Positions 4,743 to 13,620 of a stretch of 64,000 nucleotides of DNA are shown in pieces. The notes under the pieces are model-generated. The model saw nothing but the letters and a program-made list of their open reading frames with translations, was not told the origin of the DNA and ran no database searches. The position numbers and the translations under genes were made by a program. The first letter of the stretch is position 1. Each line of letters starts with the position of its first letter. Source of the stretch: Urbifossiella limnaea (GTDB lineage Bacteria > Planctomycetota > Planctomycetia > Gemmatales > Gemmataceae); contig NZ_CP036273.1 of the NCBI RefSeq assembly GCF_007747215.1, positions 4,324,322 through 4,388,321 of the forward strand. The letters are read 5' to 3'.

Positions 4743-5297
4743 ATGCGCCTCATCCTCTGTGCCGCTGTCGCAACCGTACTGGTCGCAGCACCCGCTGGTG
4801 CCGACGACTTCGCCCCCGAGCCGGGATTCAAGATGCTCCTGAGCGGCAAGGACTTCGCCGGATGGAAGGCGAAGGCGGCGAAGGGCGGCGAGCCGCTCGA
4901 GGGGAAGGCCGAAGCCTTTAAGGGGCGATTCAAGTTCAACAAGGACGGCGGACTCGTCATCGACCCGGCCGTGAAGGGCGACGTGCGGATCGAGACGGTT
5001 CAGGAGTTCACGAAGGAGACGGTCATCCGCTTCGACTTCCTCCCGGGTGCCGGCTGCAACAACGACCTGTTCTTTCTCGGGAGCAAGTTCGACATCAACC
5101 CGACGCAACTGAAGATGGTGAAGGTCGGCGAGTGGAACGCGATGGACATCACCGCCTCGGGCGGCACGACGACGTTCAAAATCAACGGCGAAACGGCGCG
5201 ATCGGACAAAGCAAAGACCGCGAAGAGCACGTTGGAGTTTCGGGCCGAGTTCGGGTCGATGGAGGTCCGCCGGTTGAGGGCCAAAACGGGCGGCTAG
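4743..5297 (+). CDS. exported DUF1080 (3-keto-disaccharide hydrolase-like) domain protein
   Basis: 184 residues: signal peptide (residues 1-20, ending in PAGA) followed by a single DUF1080 jelly-roll domain. Landmarks are MLLSGKDFAGWKAK at the start of the domain, GCNNDLFFLGSKFDI in the middle and the closing strand LEFRAEFGSMEVRRLRA. DUF1080 proteins are concanavalin-like folds; some hydrolyse 3-keto-disaccharides in the periplasm, many are uncharacterised. The TAG stop shares the tetranucleotide CTAG with the stop of the convergent FHA gene. Divergent from nuoN, whose start is 130 bases away. Confidence 0.85.
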   Translation: MRLILCAAVATVLVAAPAGADDFAPEPGFKMLLSGKDFAGWKAKAAKGGEPLEGKAEAFKGRFKFNKDGGLVIDPAVKGDVRIETVQEFTKETVIRFDFLPGAGCNNDLFFLGSKFDINPTQLKMVKVGEWNAMDITASGGTTTFKINGETARSDKAKTAKSTLEFRAEFGSMEVRRLRAKTGG

Positions 5298-5686
5298 TCC
5301 GTCGGCGTGTGCTGCTCCTCGTACACGTCCGGCAGCGCGTTTCGGCGGACCGGGGCGGCGCTGCTCCCGGCGGCGGCCTCCGCGGCCAGGGCCGCGTCGA
5401 GGTCGGCGCCGAACAGCACGCGGTACTTCAAGTTGGCAAACCCGACGGAGTCGTTCGGCAGTAGCGCCGCCCGCCGCACCCGCTGACCGTTCACCCGGGT
5501 GCCGTTCGTGCTGCCGAGGTCGCGCAGGAGCAGCAGCCCGTCGGTCTTCACCACCACGCAGTGGTACTTCGAGACACTCTTGTGCTCGACGCGGACGTCG
5601 CAGTCCGCGCCGCGGCCGACGACGGAAAGGTCTTTGGTCAGGTCGATCGGCGGGCCGCCGTCGGCAGGAACCAGTCGGGCACGCAT
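5294..5686 (-). CDS. FHA-domain protein
   Basis: 130 residues from ATG 5686, nearly all one forkhead-associated domain, which binds phosphothreonine peptides. The binding signature is complete: Gly-Arg at 24-25 (VVGRGADCD), Ser39-x-x-His42 (SVSKYH), and Asn61-Gly-Thr with Asn66-Gly (STNGTRVNGQ). A 30-residue acidic/alanine tail follows. It is the last gene of an operon after kdsA and a lipoprotein (80 bases behind the lipoprotein stop), so it may sense Ser/Thr-kinase signalling at the envelope. No kinase is encoded nearby. Its stop overlaps that of the convergent DUF1080 gene at CTAG. Confidence 0.9.
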   Translation of the reverse strand: MRARLVPADGGPPIDLTKDLSVVGRGADCDVRVEHKSVSKYHCVVVKTDGLLLLRDLGSTNGTRVNGQRVRRAALLPNDSVGFANLKYRVLFGADLDAALAAEAAAGSSAAPVRRNALPDVYEEQHTPTD

Positions 5687-5766
5687 CGGGGTCCGCTCGC
5701 ACGGCGGTCGGGGATACACGATTGTTCCCGCACGGCGGTCGCCGCACAAGGGTTGAAGCGCCGTGG

Positions 5767-8609: not shown

Positions 8610-10109
8610 CTACGGCCGGCTCATGCCCACGAAGCTGCCGTCGTTCTCGCGGGCCAGCGCCCACAGGAACGCCCCCAGGTCGGGGCTCTCGTAGTAGAAG
8701 CCGATCGAGTGGATGCGGATGCGGCTCGCCGCGGACGGGTTCCACGTCGAGCGCAACTTGTCGCGGATGAACCGGCCCATGATCTCGGCCTGCCGCGTCT
8801 CCTCCAGCGGCGGCACCGCAGCCACCTGTGCAGGCGTCAGGCCGGGGCCGATGTTCGGCAGGCCGTCCGAGAACAGGTAAATGGTGTCGAGGCCGCGCGG
8901 CCGCAGCCCGAACGCCAGGTCGAACCCGGCGTGCATGTTCGTGCCGTCGGCCGGCCTGATGCGGCCGAGCGCCTCGCGCACCTCGGCCACGCTCTTCTCG
9001 CCGTCGTACCGCCGCCACTCGCCGCTCCCCAGCAGCCAGCGAGCGTCCTTCGAGAAGACGATGACCTGGTACTGCTGGATGGTCGGCACGCTCCGCATGA
9101 CGCGGGCGATGGTGTCGCACACGTTCGGCCACTTCATCGGCGCCGCGGTGTTGCTGTCGGTCTTCTCCATGCTCCCGGACGTGTCCACCAGGAACACCAC
9201 GTTCCGACCGGTCATCGAGATGCCGGCGAACCGCTTCTCGTCGTTCGGGTCGAGCTTGTTCGTCTTGTCCGCGAGCTTGGCCTTCTCCCCTTGCAGGTCG
9301 ATGATGGTGGCGTTCGCCTCGTCGAGTTGCTTCCGCATGTCGCGGATCTGCCCGCGGGCGGCGAGCAGGTCGGTGTCCGCCTTGCTGGCCGCCGCCTTCG
9401 CCGCGGCCGCGTCGGTGGCGGCTTTCTCGGCCGCAGTGCGGGTCGAACTCAGGTCCGCGGCCGACTTCGACGCCATCGCCTTCGCGTCCGCCGCGGACGA
9501 CGCCAGCCGCGCGTCCAGGTCGGCGAGCGTCACCTTCAACTCGGCCGCGCGACGTTCGAGGGCGACGCGCTCCTCCTCCGTGGTGCGGACGAGGCGGGCC
9601 AAATCTTCGGCGACGGCGGCAGACGCGGCGGCCTTGCGGGCGAGCCCCTCGGCCTCTTTCTGCTTGCGGCGCAGCTGCAGGTCGGCGTCGTCGGCCTCCT
9701 TGCGGGCAAGGATCAGGTCGTTGGCGGTGGCGTCGAGCTTCTTCTCGGTGGCGTTCAGCGCCAGCTTCGTGGCGTCGAGCAACTCTTGCGCGGACTTCGC
9801 CTCGTCGCGCGCGATGCCGAGGTTGCGGGCAAGGTCCGCCTTCTCGACGCGGACAGCCCCGAGTTCCTTGGTAAGCGTCTTCACCTCGGAGTTCAGCCGA
9901 AGCTTCGTGGAGTCGAGGTTGGTGAGCGCCAGCTTCAGGTCGTCGCGGACGCGCGAAAGGTCGGCGAAGGCGGCCTGCGCGGCGGTGGTCTGCTCCGTCG
10001 CCTGGCGCGTGTTGAGGAGCCACAGCAGGGTGACGCAGCCGAGGGCGCAGCAGAACACGTCGAGCATCCACATGCTGACGAGGGTGGGCTGCTTGTGCCG
10101 GACGCGCAT
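8610..10109 (-). CDS. membrane-anchored coiled-coil VWA-domain protein (TolR/MotB-like N-terminus)
   Basis: 499 residues in three parts. Residues 10-32 are one transmembrane helix entered by Asp17 (MWMLDVFCCALGCVTLLWLL), which resembles the proton-accepting Asp at the start of the MotB/TolR/ExbD helix. Residues 36-285 are a long, nearly unbroken coiled coil rich in Ala, Lys, Glu and Asp. Residues 303-495 are a von Willebrand factor A domain with a complete metal-ion-dependent adhesion site: DTSGS at 309-313, Thr390 in DGTNMH and FSDG near 413-416. It is therefore a single-span protein whose VWA head is held far from the membrane. It is the third gene behind a TolQ/ExbB-type channel and an actin/Hsp70-like protein, with a 21-base gap to the latter. 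Function is not known; I infer a proton-motive-force-driven complex. Confidence 0.8.
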   Translation of the reverse strand: MRVRHKQPTLVSMWMLDVFCCALGCVTLLWLLNTRQATEQTTAAQAAFADLSRVRDDLKLALTNLDSTKLRLNSEVKTLTKELGAVRVEKADLARNLGIARDEAKSAQELLDATKLALNATEKKLDATANDLILARKEADDADLQLRRKQKEAEGLARKAAASAAVAEDLARLVRTTEEERVALERRAAELKVTLADLDARLASSAADAKAMASKSAADLSSTRTAAEKAATDAAAAKAAASKADTDLLAARGQIRDMRKQLDEANATIIDLQGEKAKLADKTNKLDPNDEKRFAGISMTGRNVVFLVDTSGSMEKTDSNTAAPMKWPNVCDTIARVMRSVPTIQQYQVIVFSKDARWLLGSGEWRRYDGEKSVAEVREALGRIRPADGTNMHAGFDLAFGLRPRGLDTIYLFSDGLPNIGPGLTPAQVAAVPPLEETRQAEIMGRFIRDKLRSTWNPSAASRIRIHSIGFYYESPDLGAFLWALARENDGSFVGMSRP

Positions 10110-10130
10110 CGGGGTGGCTCCGCGGGGCGG

Positions 10131-11345
10131 CTAGCGGTTCGTGGACGACCGCGGGGCGGCGGCCGCGACATCGGCGGGAAGTGGGAGCGAGCCGTCGAGG
10201 TGGGAGCGCGGCAGCTCGCCGGCCGCCCAGCGCGGCACGAGCGCGGCCGCCGCGTGCGCCACCGCCCCCGGCGGCAGCACTTCCACGGCCGTCCCCTCGG
10301 GCGTGTGCAGGTGGAGAGCACGGCCGAAGCCCGGCAACCGGCCGGCGGCGTGCGTCAGCCACACGACCCGCGGCGGCGACGGCACCCCAGACGCCGTGAC
10401 GAACTCGCGGACCGTCTCGGCGGCGGAACGTGCCAGCGCCGCGGTGTGCTGCTCGAAGTCCTCGGCCGGCTCGGCCAGGTCCTGGTACCAGTGGCCGATG
10501 CGGGCCGACAGCGTCGCCGTGCCGGCGGTGCGGTAGCTGTCCAGCGTGACGTCGAGTTGTTCGTACAGCGCCTGCTCGGCCTCGGCGGAGTCGCGCGGGT
10601 CGCGGCGGCACAGGCGGACGCAGCGGTCAGAGACGCCGTCGATGAGTCGGTCCATCCACGGCTTGAGTCCGGCCTGCGGCCAGTGCGCCGCGGCCGCCAC
10701 CTTCGCCGCAGCCCGGTCCACCTGCACCACCGTCGCCGTGAGGGCGAACTCGTCGGCGTCGATGACGACCGCGGCCCCCGGGCCGGTGGCGCCGGGGCGG
10801 AGCGGGATGACGTTGCCGTCGGCGGTGGTGCCGGGGCGGCCGCTCAGGACGGAACCGGCCCGATGAACGGCGACCGCGAGCGCGGCGGCGGCGGTCCCCT
10901 TCAGCGGCAATTTGGCCTTGGCTGCAAGCGCGGCCAACTTCACCGCCTGCGGCGCCGTCAGGTACGACGGCAGGACGAGCCCGGCGGCCTCGGTCTCGGC
11001 GGCGACCGTCGCGCCGACCTTGGCCAGGGCGAGTTCGACGAGCGTGTCGGCGGTGAGGGAGTGCCGCCCGGCGGGGAACTCGCGCGGCTGCCCGATGGCG
11101 GGGAGGAACCCGGTGGCGACCGCGTGCGCGGCCGCGCGCCGCAGCGCCGCACCGGCGTGGCCGACTTCGGGCGTGCGGCGGTCGCCGGCGACGGCGAGCA
11201 CGAGTTCTTCGCCGGGGTCGTCGAGGACCAGGACGCGGACCTTGCCGCCGCCGACGGACACGGCGCGGGCGCGCGACGCCGTCAGGTCGATCCCGACGAC
11301 GCGGGACTTGTCGTGAACAGGAGCCGGCTTTCGGGACCAGAGCAT
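10131..11345 (-). CDS. actin/Hsp70-superfamily ATPase-like protein
   Basis: 404 residues from ATG 11345 (a TTG at 11366 is an alternative). The N-terminus RVVGIDLTASRARAVSV matches the phosphate-1 loop of the Hsp70/actin/sugar-kinase fold, and AAVVIDADEFALTATVVQV near residues 192-210 looks like the phosphate-2 region; GVPSPPRVVWLTHAAGRLPG near 345 is placed like the adenosine motif. It lacks an obvious Hsp70 substrate-binding domain, so it is nearer to a stand-alone actin-like ATPase module. It is cytoplasmic (no signal peptide). It lies between a TolQ/ExbB-type channel gene and a VWA gene on the same strand. The assignment to this fold is by motif pattern; a search against Hsp70/FtsA/MreB profiles would decide it. 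Confidence 0.6.
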   Translation of the reverse strand: MLWSRKPAPVHDKSRVVGIDLTASRARAVSVGGGKVRVLVLDDPGEELVLAVAGDRRTPEVGHAGAALRRAAAHAVATGFLPAIGQPREFPAGRHSLTADTLVELALAKVGATVAAETEAAGLVLPSYLTAPQAVKLAALAAKAKLPLKGTAAAALAVAVHRAGSVLSGRPGTTADGNVIPLRPGATGPGAAVVIDADEFALTATVVQVDRAAAKVAAAAHWPQAGLKPWMDRLIDGVSDRCVRLCRRDPRDSAEAEQALYEQLDVTLDSYRTAGTATLSARIGHWYQDLAEPAEDFEQHTAALARSAAETVREFVTASGVPSPPRVVWLTHAAGRLPGFGRALHLHTPEGTAVEVLPPGAVAHAAAALVPRWAAGELPRSHLDGSLPLPADVAAAAPRSSTNR

Positions 11346-11435
11346 CGGGGGTCGCCCGTGGGTCAACGTCCAACGCAGGCCGCCTACGCCGCGCGGGGTT
11401 CCACCCCGGGCTACACGCCGTCGCCCCTCCGGGGC
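11346..11435. repeat. GC-rich inverted-repeat spacer inside the cassette
   Basis: The 90-base gap between the channel gene and the actin-like gene holds nested inverted repeats: CCCGGG at 11406 and again near 11445 flank a small hairpin CCCCTCCGGGG. It may attenuate or stabilise the message between the first and second cassette genes. No open frame fits. Confidence 0.35.
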
Positions 11436-12221
11436 TCAACCCGGGTCGTAGAGCCGGAGTAACAGGTGTTCCTGGCAGTACTCTTGAGCGTCCACGACGA
11501 GCGTTTCCTCCGCCCGCTGGACGGTGTGGACGATGTACATCAGCACCAGGCTCAGCAGCAGCGCCACAAGTGTGCAGTCGAACGCGATCTTCAGCTGGTC
11601 GGTCGCCTGGCGGGTGAAGTCGGCCATGCCCACGTCGGTGACGCCGGCCATGCCGAACGCCCCTGCCAGCCCGCGGACCGTACCCACGAAGCCGATCGCC
11701 GGGATCGCCCACGCCAGGTAGTGGACGGTCCCCATCGTGCTGACGAGCCGGCTCGTCTCAACGTCGGCCTGACTGCGGACTACCTCCGCCACGTCCGGTG
11801 CCGACTTCGAGATGGCGTACTTACCGAGCCCGAGGCGGATCATGTTCGCCAGGATGAACGGCCGGCGGCCGGTCACGTGCTCGACCTTGCGGGCCAGAGG
11901 GCGGGCGTCCTCCGGCAGGATGCGGGCGCCTTCCTCGTCGGGGAGGAGGCCGAAGCCGAACGCCGACCGCTGCCGCCACACCTCGCGGTAGCGGCTCTGG
12001 AGGATCAGCGCCGCCCACACGAACGCCACGTAACAGAGCACCTGCTCGGGGCCGAGGAACAGCGCCCGCAGCCGCTCCGGCGTCCACTTCGCGGCGAAGT
12101 CCTCGCGGGTCTCGCCGCCGGCGAGGTGCCACAGCGGCACCACCGCGCCGCCGACGACGGCCAGCGCCAGCACCAGCAGCAGCCACTCGCGGGCCGGGCG
12201 GTGCGAGGCCGGAATGGTCAT
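11436..12221 (-). CDS. MotA/TolQ/ExbB-family proton channel protein
   Basis: 261 residues with transmembrane helices near 14-34, 60-78, 165-190 and 210-232. The last two carry the family signature: WAIPAIGFVGTVRGLAGAFG (the P-x-x-GFxGTVxG loop of TolQ/ExbB) and FDCTLVALLLSLVLMYIVH (the T-x-V-A/T-L helix). Such proteins form pentamers around a dimer of a TolR/ExbD/MotB partner and use proton flow to do mechanical work. No separate tolR/exbD gene is present; the third gene of the cassette has a single helix with an Asp in the right place and is the likely partner. First gene of the cassette; divergent from the VCBS gene. Confidence 0.87.
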   Translation of the reverse strand: MTIPASHRPAREWLLLVLALAVVGGAVVPLWHLAGGETREDFAAKWTPERLRALFLGPEQVLCYVAFVWAALILQSRYREVWRQRSAFGFGLLPDEEGARILPEDARPLARKVEHVTGRRPFILANMIRLGLGKYAISKSAPDVAEVVRSQADVETSRLVSTMGTVHYLAWAIPAIGFVGTVRGLAGAFGMAGVTDVGMADFTRQATDQLKIAFDCTLVALLLSLVLMYIVHTVQRAEETLVVDAQEYCQEHLLLRLYDPG

Positions 12222-12408: not shown

Positions 12409-13620
12409 ATGCGGGCCGCTGGTATTCTCCTCCCCGGGCTGGTCGCCGCGGCAATCTGTAACGCCGGCGCGGCCGCCCCCGCCCCGCTCCGCTTCCGCAC
12501 GCAGGAGATCGACGCCAAACTCGCCATCGGCTACTGCGTCCTCACCGCCGACCTGAACGGTGACGCGAAGCCCGACATCCTCGTCGTCGACAAGGAGAAG
12601 GTGGTCTGGTATGAGAACCCGACGTGGAAGAAGCGCGTGATCCTCGACGGCAAGAGCCGCCCGGACAACGTCTCGGCCGCGGTGCTCGACATCGACGGCG
12701 ACGGGCACCTTGACGTGGTGCTTGGGGCAGCGTGGCGGCCGTTCGACACCGCGAACCCCGGCACGCTACAGTGGCTGAAGCGCGGCAAGAGCCTCGACGA
12801 CGAGTGGACGATGTTCCCCATCCCGTGCGACGAGCCGACCGTGCACCGCGTGCGCGCCTTCGACATCGATGGCGACGGAAAACCCGAAATCGTTCACGTG
12901 CCACTGATGGGCCGAGACGCGACGCAGAAGGGGAACTGGCTCGACGGCCGGCCGGTGCGGGTGATGGCGTACAAGGTGCCGGCCGAGCCGGAGAAGGCTG
13001 AGCGGTGGAAGGCCGAGGTACTGTTCGACGAGTTACACGTGATGCACAACTTCGCCCCGGTGCCGGCCCGCGGCGGCAACGACATCCTGGTGACCAGCTA
13101 CGAGGGCGTGTACCGCCTGACGCGCGGCCAGCCGAAGTGGCTCGCCGCGAAGGTGGGCGCGGGGAACCAGGCGACGCCTGCGGGTAACCGCGGGGCGAGC
13201 GAGATCAAGCTCGGCAAGCTCGGCAGTGGCCCCGTCATCGGTACGATCGAGCCGTGGCACGGGAACCAGGTCGTGACGTACACGAAGGGTCGTGGCGAAC
13301 TGTGGGACCGGCACGTCGTGGACGAGAAGCTGAAGTGGGGCCATGGGGTCGCCTTCGCCGACCTGGACGGCGTGCCCGGCGACGAACTCGTCATCGGCGT
13401 CCGTGACAACCCCAAGGCCGGCGAGGCGTTCACCGAGAAGGCGGGCGTTCGGGTCTACACGCACGGCGCGGGCGGGTGGTCGCGGCAACTCGTGGACGAG
13501 GGCGGCGTGGCGGTCGAAGACCTGACGACGGCCGACCTGGACGGCGACGGGAAGGTGGACATCGTCGCCTGTGGCCGGGCCACCAAGAACGTGCGGATTT
13601 ACTGGAATCAGGGGCGGTGA
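12409..13620 (+). CDS. exported FG-GAP/VCBS-repeat protein
   Basis: 403 residues: signal peptide (residues 1-23) then a beta-propeller built from VCBS/FG-GAP repeats. Calcium-binding loops are easy to see: DLNGDAKPDILV, DIDGDGHLDVVL, DIDGDGKPEIVH, DLDGVPGDELVIG and DLDGDGKVDIVA. Each follows the D-x-D-x-D-G pattern. Proteins of this type are common in planctomycetes and act at the cell surface; the ligand is unknown. ATG 12409 is chosen because the signal peptide follows directly. It is divergent from the ExbB-type gene (187 bases between starts) and is followed by the second copy of the palindromic repeat. Confidence 0.88.
   Translation: MRAAGILLPGLVAAAICNAGAAAPAPLRFRTQEIDAKLAIGYCVLTADLNGDAKPDILVVDKEKVVWYENPTWKKRVILDGKSRPDNVSAAVLDIDGDGHLDVVLGAAWRPFDTANPGTLQWLKRGKSLDDEWTMFPIPCDEPTVHRVRAFDIDGDGKPEIVHVPLMGRDATQKGNWLDGRPVRVMAYKVPAEPEKAERWKAEVLFDELHVMHNFAPVPARGGNDILVTSYEGVYRLTRGQPKWLAAKVGAGNQATPAGNRGASEIKLGKLGSGPVIGTIEPWHGNQVVTYTKGRGELWDRHVVDEKLKWGHGVAFADLDGVPGDELVIGVRDNPKAGEAFTEKAGVRVYTHGAGGWSRQLVDEGGVAVEDLTTADLDGDGKVDIVACGRATKNVRIYWNQGR

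Follow-up and report, generated by a model that had tools for sequence, protein, structure and literature searches.

The window analyzed here is a stretch of 64,000 nt of the Urbifossiella limnaea genome (NZ_CP036273.1), and all coordinates are positions in this window. It contains three consecutive minus-strand genes with gaps of 90 and 21 bases (Table 1), as an earlier note on this DNA had described; they encode a channel protein of the MotA/TolQ/ExbB family, a middle protein related to Hsp70, and a protein with a VWA domain. All three genes lie in one reading frame and are separated only by TGA and TAG. We regard this trio as a real variant of the transpore-helix vWA (TPH-vWA) motor class, in which a vWA protein is proposed to be the axle inside a pentamer of TolQ-like subunits (PMC12204202, Mol Biol Evol 2025), with a conserved, degenerate Hsp70 (pseudo-Hsp70) as an additional subunit. 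The host genome, a single contig of 7.80 Mb, has four MotA_ExbB matches, the weakest of which is the channel of the window.

Table 1. Features of the three-gene locus, with window coordinates and the evidence for each.
Feature	Position	Strand	Description and evidence
Channel gene	11436..12221	-	261 aa; MotA/TolQ/ExbB family; about four transmembrane helices in a MotA-like layout; Pfam and hydropathy
Channel Thr181 codon (GFVGTVRG)	11679..11681	-	Counterpart of ExbB's first pore threonine; conservation and ExbB alignment
Channel Thr217 codon (AFDCTLVAL)	11571..11573	-	Counterpart of ExbB's second pore threonine; conservation and ExbB alignment
Pseudo-Hsp70 (middle) gene	10131..11345	-	404 aa; corresponds to the nucleotide-binding domain of Hsp70 alone, without its catalytic residues; profile, model, and residue table
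VWA gene (putative axle)	8610..10109	-	499 aa; Asp-bearing transmembrane helix, long helical arm, VWA head; profile, model, and alignment
VWA protein transmembrane (putative transpore) helix, residues 14-32	10014..10070	-	Asp17 codon 10059-10061; hydropathy and alignment
VWA protein helical arm, residues 33-285	9255..10013	-	Low-confidence break at ~203-223; predicted secondary structure and coiled-coil PDB matches
VWA head, residues 300-499	8613..9212	-	Complete MIDAS; Pfam, alignment, model, and structural neighbors

The channel protein matches Pfam MotA_ExbB (PF01618) with E 3.7e-8 (33.6 bits against a curated cut-off of 22.9), and the GFVGTVRG loop occupies residues 177–184, which bears out the assignment to the TolQ/ExbB/MotA type. 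Hydropathy peaks are seen at residues 13–31, 56–74, ~164–187, and 212–230; the channel profile finds no match among PDB sequences at E 0.1. In the alignment of 40 diverse family members, Thr181 is kept in 39 and Thr217 in all 40, and both align with two threonines of the same genome's own ExbB.

The VWA protein matches Pfam VWA_2 (E 2.4e-11). Its hydropathy profile shows a single transmembrane helix preceded by a basic N-terminus; hence, by the positive-inside rule, the arm and the head should be periplasmic. The AlphaFold2 (AF2) model (all structure predictions here are single-chain models) has helices at residues 11–202 and 224–285, followed by a confident VWA head from ~300. The helical arm has coiled-coil matches in the PDB, while the best structural neighbors of the model are VWA domains, e.g., those of ANTXR2 and the LapA adhesin. 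The residues of the metal ion-dependent adhesion site (MIDAS), D309, S311, S313, T390, and D415, are invariant in 40 relatives. Hydropathy, model, and alignment thus agree with the previous description of one transmembrane helix with Asp17, an arm of ~250 residues, and a VWA head with a complete MIDAS.

Asp17 is invariant (40/40 diverse family members) within a motif like M-x-DV-x-CCALGC. In a wider set, Asp is found in 131/131 matches to the helix motif (duplicates included), and three VWA proteins of another planctomycete family (f46), outside the search pattern, likewise read SF[IL]DALTCGLGA. The helix sequences and the alignment of 40 show no SHLS motif, and the VWA protein has no profile match to the ExbD domain (PF02472). 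The same profile finds no ExbD-family gene near the trio (MotB families were not searched separately); all four ExbD genes of the genome lie at two other loci, both of which also hold ExbB-like genes. The earlier note was therefore right that no gene for a TolR/ExbD/MotB-type partner stands at the locus, as far as the ExbD family is concerned, and its candidate for that role, the VWA protein, is supported by the invariant Asp, by the adjacency to a channel gene without ExbD, and by channel–VWA pairs in other planctomycete families. Since the genome encodes four ExbD proteins, an ExbD/TolR protein from another locus might instead be the axle, with the VWA protein outside the pentamer as a TolA/TonB-like side transducer, as proposed for another vWA family of the PVC (Planctomycetes–Verrucomicrobia–Chlamydiae) group (PMC12204202). 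The invariant Asp at the helix start, the missing SHLS motif, and the location of the ExbD genes beside ExbB-like genes of their own make this arrangement unlikely.

The middle protein, as a single query, has no match in Pfam, NCBIfam, or PADLOC. Among PDB sequences, the profile of its family matches chains of DnaK/Hsp70, the best with E 5.3e-17, and 8 of the 38 family members individually match Pfam HSP70. The AF2 model (pLDDT 90.5, pTM 0.89) aligns with Hsp70 nucleotide-binding domains (NBDs) at Z ~34 and a root-mean-square deviation of 2.6–3.1 over ~340 residues, with matches spanning residues 13–377 of 404. The three proteins are thus placed by profile searches with MotA_ExbB, DnaK/Hsp70, and VWA_2, respectively. 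At the catalytic positions (DnaK numbering), the 38 family members have Leu in place of K70 (36/38), mostly Ala, Ser, or Thr in place of E171, Asp in place of G196 (38/38), Ala in place of T199 (33/38), and Thr or Ser in place of D201. The GG of the adenosine motif is lost, while the P1 Asp is retained in 28/38. The protein ends approximately where the NBD ends and has no Hsp70 substrate-binding domain; given this and the lost catalytic residues, "pseudo-Hsp70" is the best name for it. The same catalytic loops are lost in the pseudo-Hsp70s of f46 and of Gammaproteobacteria.

Hence, the Hsp70/actin fold reported previously is confirmed by profile and model, whereas its phosphate-loop motifs turn out to be degenerate. 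An active, ATP-driven regulator or motor chaperone of the Hsp70/actin type, the former of which had been suggested for the middle protein, would agree with the NBD fold and the frequent P1 Asp; a working ATPase is very unlikely, however, because every lineage examined carries substitutions at the catalytic residues, and the substrate domain is missing as well.

In one genus (L097/L284), the pseudo-Hsp70 is fused in frame after a full-length channel, yielding a protein of 674 aa. A second candidate fusion (L103) was not counted, since its channel lacks residues past ~163, probably due to a frameshift or an assembly fault. A C-terminal FHA domain is present in 11 of the 38 pseudo-Hsp70s and absent from that of the window. 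A small FHA-domain-like ORF (GRGADCDVRVEHKSVSKYHCVV...GSTNGTRVNG, recognized by eye) is found on the strand of the trio (minus), ~3 kb farther downstream, at window positions ~5294–5690.

Conservation was assessed in 95 genomes of the family Gemmataceae, with many loci coming from metagenome bins. Matches are found for the channel in 92 genomes (a few being the second paralogue only), for the middle protein in 83, and for the VWA protein in 85. Of the 71 Gemmatales loci with enough room, 69 hold the trio as a contiguous set; the scripted count was 67/71, to which L231 and L247 were added, both missed by the script because their ORF starts lie upstream. The true exceptions are L233, where the VWA gene sits on a separate contig, and L198 (genome G099), where channel, middle, and VWA genes are scattered on contigs C50, C36, and C32, respectively, all of them retained. 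All three genes are absent from G059 and G069–G071, i.e., completely lost in two genera; the middle-protein profile gives only weak matches to ordinary DnaK-sized frames in the two of these genomes tested. As controls, the flanking genes were compared at 47 loci: homologues of the kdsA-like downstream neighbor are missing beside all of them, and those of the FG-GAP gene upstream stand beside the trio in 14; neighborhood clustering reveals no additional partner conserved in most loci. The conserved unit is the trio, not the flanking genes, and its conservation is far beyond chance. The co-occurrence of the three genes in other planctomycetes is supported by contiguity, by co-retention in G099, and by co-loss elsewhere.

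The FG-GAP/beta-propeller gene (window 12409–13620, plus strand) lies upstream of the channel gene in divergent orientation. In one genome (G066; L133, the same locus as L288), a second VWA gene without the Asp-helix motif lies directly downstream of the trio.

Conservation also bears on a possible Zorya-like anti-phage function, to which the motor superfamily shared with ZorAB and the channel's weak hit against the ZorA2 model of PADLOC (E 0.0063) might point. No PADLOC model of ZorB, ZorC, ZorD, or ZorE matched the trio, and near-universal presence as a core gene set of a family is unlike a mobile defense cassette; given this content and conservation, we reject Zorya identity as very unlikely, in agreement with the distinction drawn earlier.

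In a tree of 46 channels, the VWA-partnered channels all fall in one clade (98/91), within which the pseudo-Hsp70-associated channels of Gemmatales, f46, and Gammaproteobacteria form an inner clade (96/90). Two further planctomycete families with channel–VWA pairs, f58 and f30, are outside the latter; their VWA gene directly follows the channel gene, and no middle gene is seen at the locus. A larger set, consisting of a TPR membrane protein, a PEGA and FGE-type membrane protein, the channel, the pseudo-Hsp70, and two VWA genes, occurs in f46 (L297–L299) and Gammaproteobacteria (L290, L291). The Gemmatales set may be a reduced version of it with one long-armed VWA protein, although gain elsewhere is equally possible.

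In f58 (L201, L203), the channel–VWA pair is immediately preceded by genes for a Ser/Thr kinase and an FHA-trypsin protein. Together with the FHA domains of the pseudo-Hsp70s, they would suit a fixed sensor, in which the channel homologue serves as an anchor, and the state of the envelope, reported by the VWA head, is passed via the channel to the pseudo-Hsp70/FHA protein. We give this explanation a small chance, since the Asp and threonines of the ion path are all conserved, which a mere anchor would not need.

Related arrangements are seen in other families. A second planctomycete channel family (L207–L213, frames of ~450–690 aa) is followed by coiled-coil partners whose C-terminal parts differ from the VWA protein; their helix resembles the VWA helix, but has Ala or Ser at the position of Asp17 (FPFLAVLLCAMGAL). 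An additional partner in L207 does have Asp (SFLDILANLVG), and the co-existence of the two types suggests mixed axles. In family f3 (L300–L302), two distinct partners with an Asp helix but no VWA head (FQDII..., LELLLDTICNTFGG...) come after the channel, apparently another axle pair.

Taken together, the trio is probably an ion-driven motor of the TPH-vWA class, placed in the inner membrane, with the pseudo-Hsp70 docked at the channel as a scaffold or clutch. This is favored by gene order, co-conservation with co-retention and co-loss, conservation of the Asp, Thr, and MIDAS residues, the dead Hsp70 NBD, and one fusion; by the channel–VWA pairs of f58 and f30, the lack of ExbD nearby, and the clades of the channel tree; and by published AlphaFold3 (AF3) models of related vWA proteins within TolQ-like pentamers (PMC12204202). 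What the trio does, how its channel and helix make contact, and the mechanism set out below (stoichiometry and ion, insertion of the helix and its rotation, ligand of the head, docking and regulation of the pseudo-Hsp70) are inferred from these data. In the proposed mechanism, channel subunits would form a TolQ/ExbB-like pentamer, and two VWA copies would place their Asp17 helices in the pore as an axle (5:2-type). Ion flow past Asp17 and the channel Thr181 and Thr217 would turn or work this axle; the motion would be carried along the helical arm through the periplasm to the metal-dependent VWA head, which would grip an envelope partner, with the cell wall, outer membrane, or surface layer as candidates. 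The pseudo-Hsp70 would be docked to the channel in the cytoplasm, where it would be no ATPase but a scaffold or clutch, and, given the FHA domains in several genera, may be gated by phosphothreonine signaling.

Some points weigh against this mechanism. Co-conservation would also fit a complex with the VWA helix outside the pore; the absence of the pseudo-Hsp70 from the f58 and f30 loci makes it dispensable for some VWA motors; a sound channel–Hsp70 fusion is seen only once; and the residue loss, while making ATP hydrolysis unlikely, is still compatible with nucleotide binding. That the trio represents a branch of its own among ion-driven rotary motors, with a dead Hsp70 NBD as a standing channel-docked subunit (scaffold or phosphothreonine clutch) and an axle ending in an adhesion head, is a more tentative proposal, possible but rather doubtful. 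If true, a motor has recruited an Hsp70 relative as one of its subunits, and bacteria with unusually folded membranes, in which force-coupling systems are hardly known, have an almost universal envelope machine.

Similar to the NBD of Hsp70/DnaK, the middle protein has the whole fold, but it lacks the catalytic residues and the substrate domain. Cytoplasmic scaffolds of the actin/Hsp70 superfold that serve membrane machines are known in the GspL/PilM type; these belong to another subfamily and another machine, and the analogy is in role only. The trio resembles ExbB–ExbD/TolQ–TolR in its PF01618 channel, in the threonine positions, and in having an Asp where the helix of the partner starts; it differs in that a long arm with a VWA head takes the place of the partner's ExbD/TolR domain, and in having no TonB/TolA-like gene.

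The closest relatives are the TPH-vWA motors. There, the Asp transpore helix of a second vWA family is proposed to enter TolQ-like pentamers as the axle; these systems have no TolR/ExbD and are mostly heterologous vWA pairs of Proteobacteria and Verrucomicrobia (PMC12204202). The trio shares the TolQ-like channel with its ring of pore threonines, the adjacent membrane-anchored vWA gene (with the pseudo-Hsp70 gene interposed in Gemmatales), the helix Asp without SHLS, and the absence of tolR/exbD from the locus, MotB families not having been searched separately. The heterologous vWA pair, predominant but not universal in the class, is found in f46 and Gammaproteobacteria, whereas Gemmatales have a single vWA gene; judging from their architecture, the gammaproteobacterial loci probably belong to the same family as the Idiomarina example of PMC12204202. 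Hsp70 or DnaK is not mentioned in the main text of that paper, nor does the paper on the Tuwongella proteome mention any of the three proteins in its main text, and no paper uniting channel, VWA, and Hsp70-like components was found in the open-access literature. The suggestion that the trio be treated as a new family of its own is thus weakened, because PMC12204202 already proposes that vWA proteins act as the axle in pentamers of the TolQ type, and stands in part: neither the pseudo-Hsp70 between channel and vWA, nor the channel–Hsp70 fusion of one genus, nor the Gemmatales version seems to have been reported, and the FHA link and the single vWA protein with a far longer helical arm also remain new. 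To the vWA-axle motors, proposed only recently, the trio adds a third conserved component, and cultured Gemmatales (Gemmata, Zavarzinella, Limnoglobus) offer a test case.

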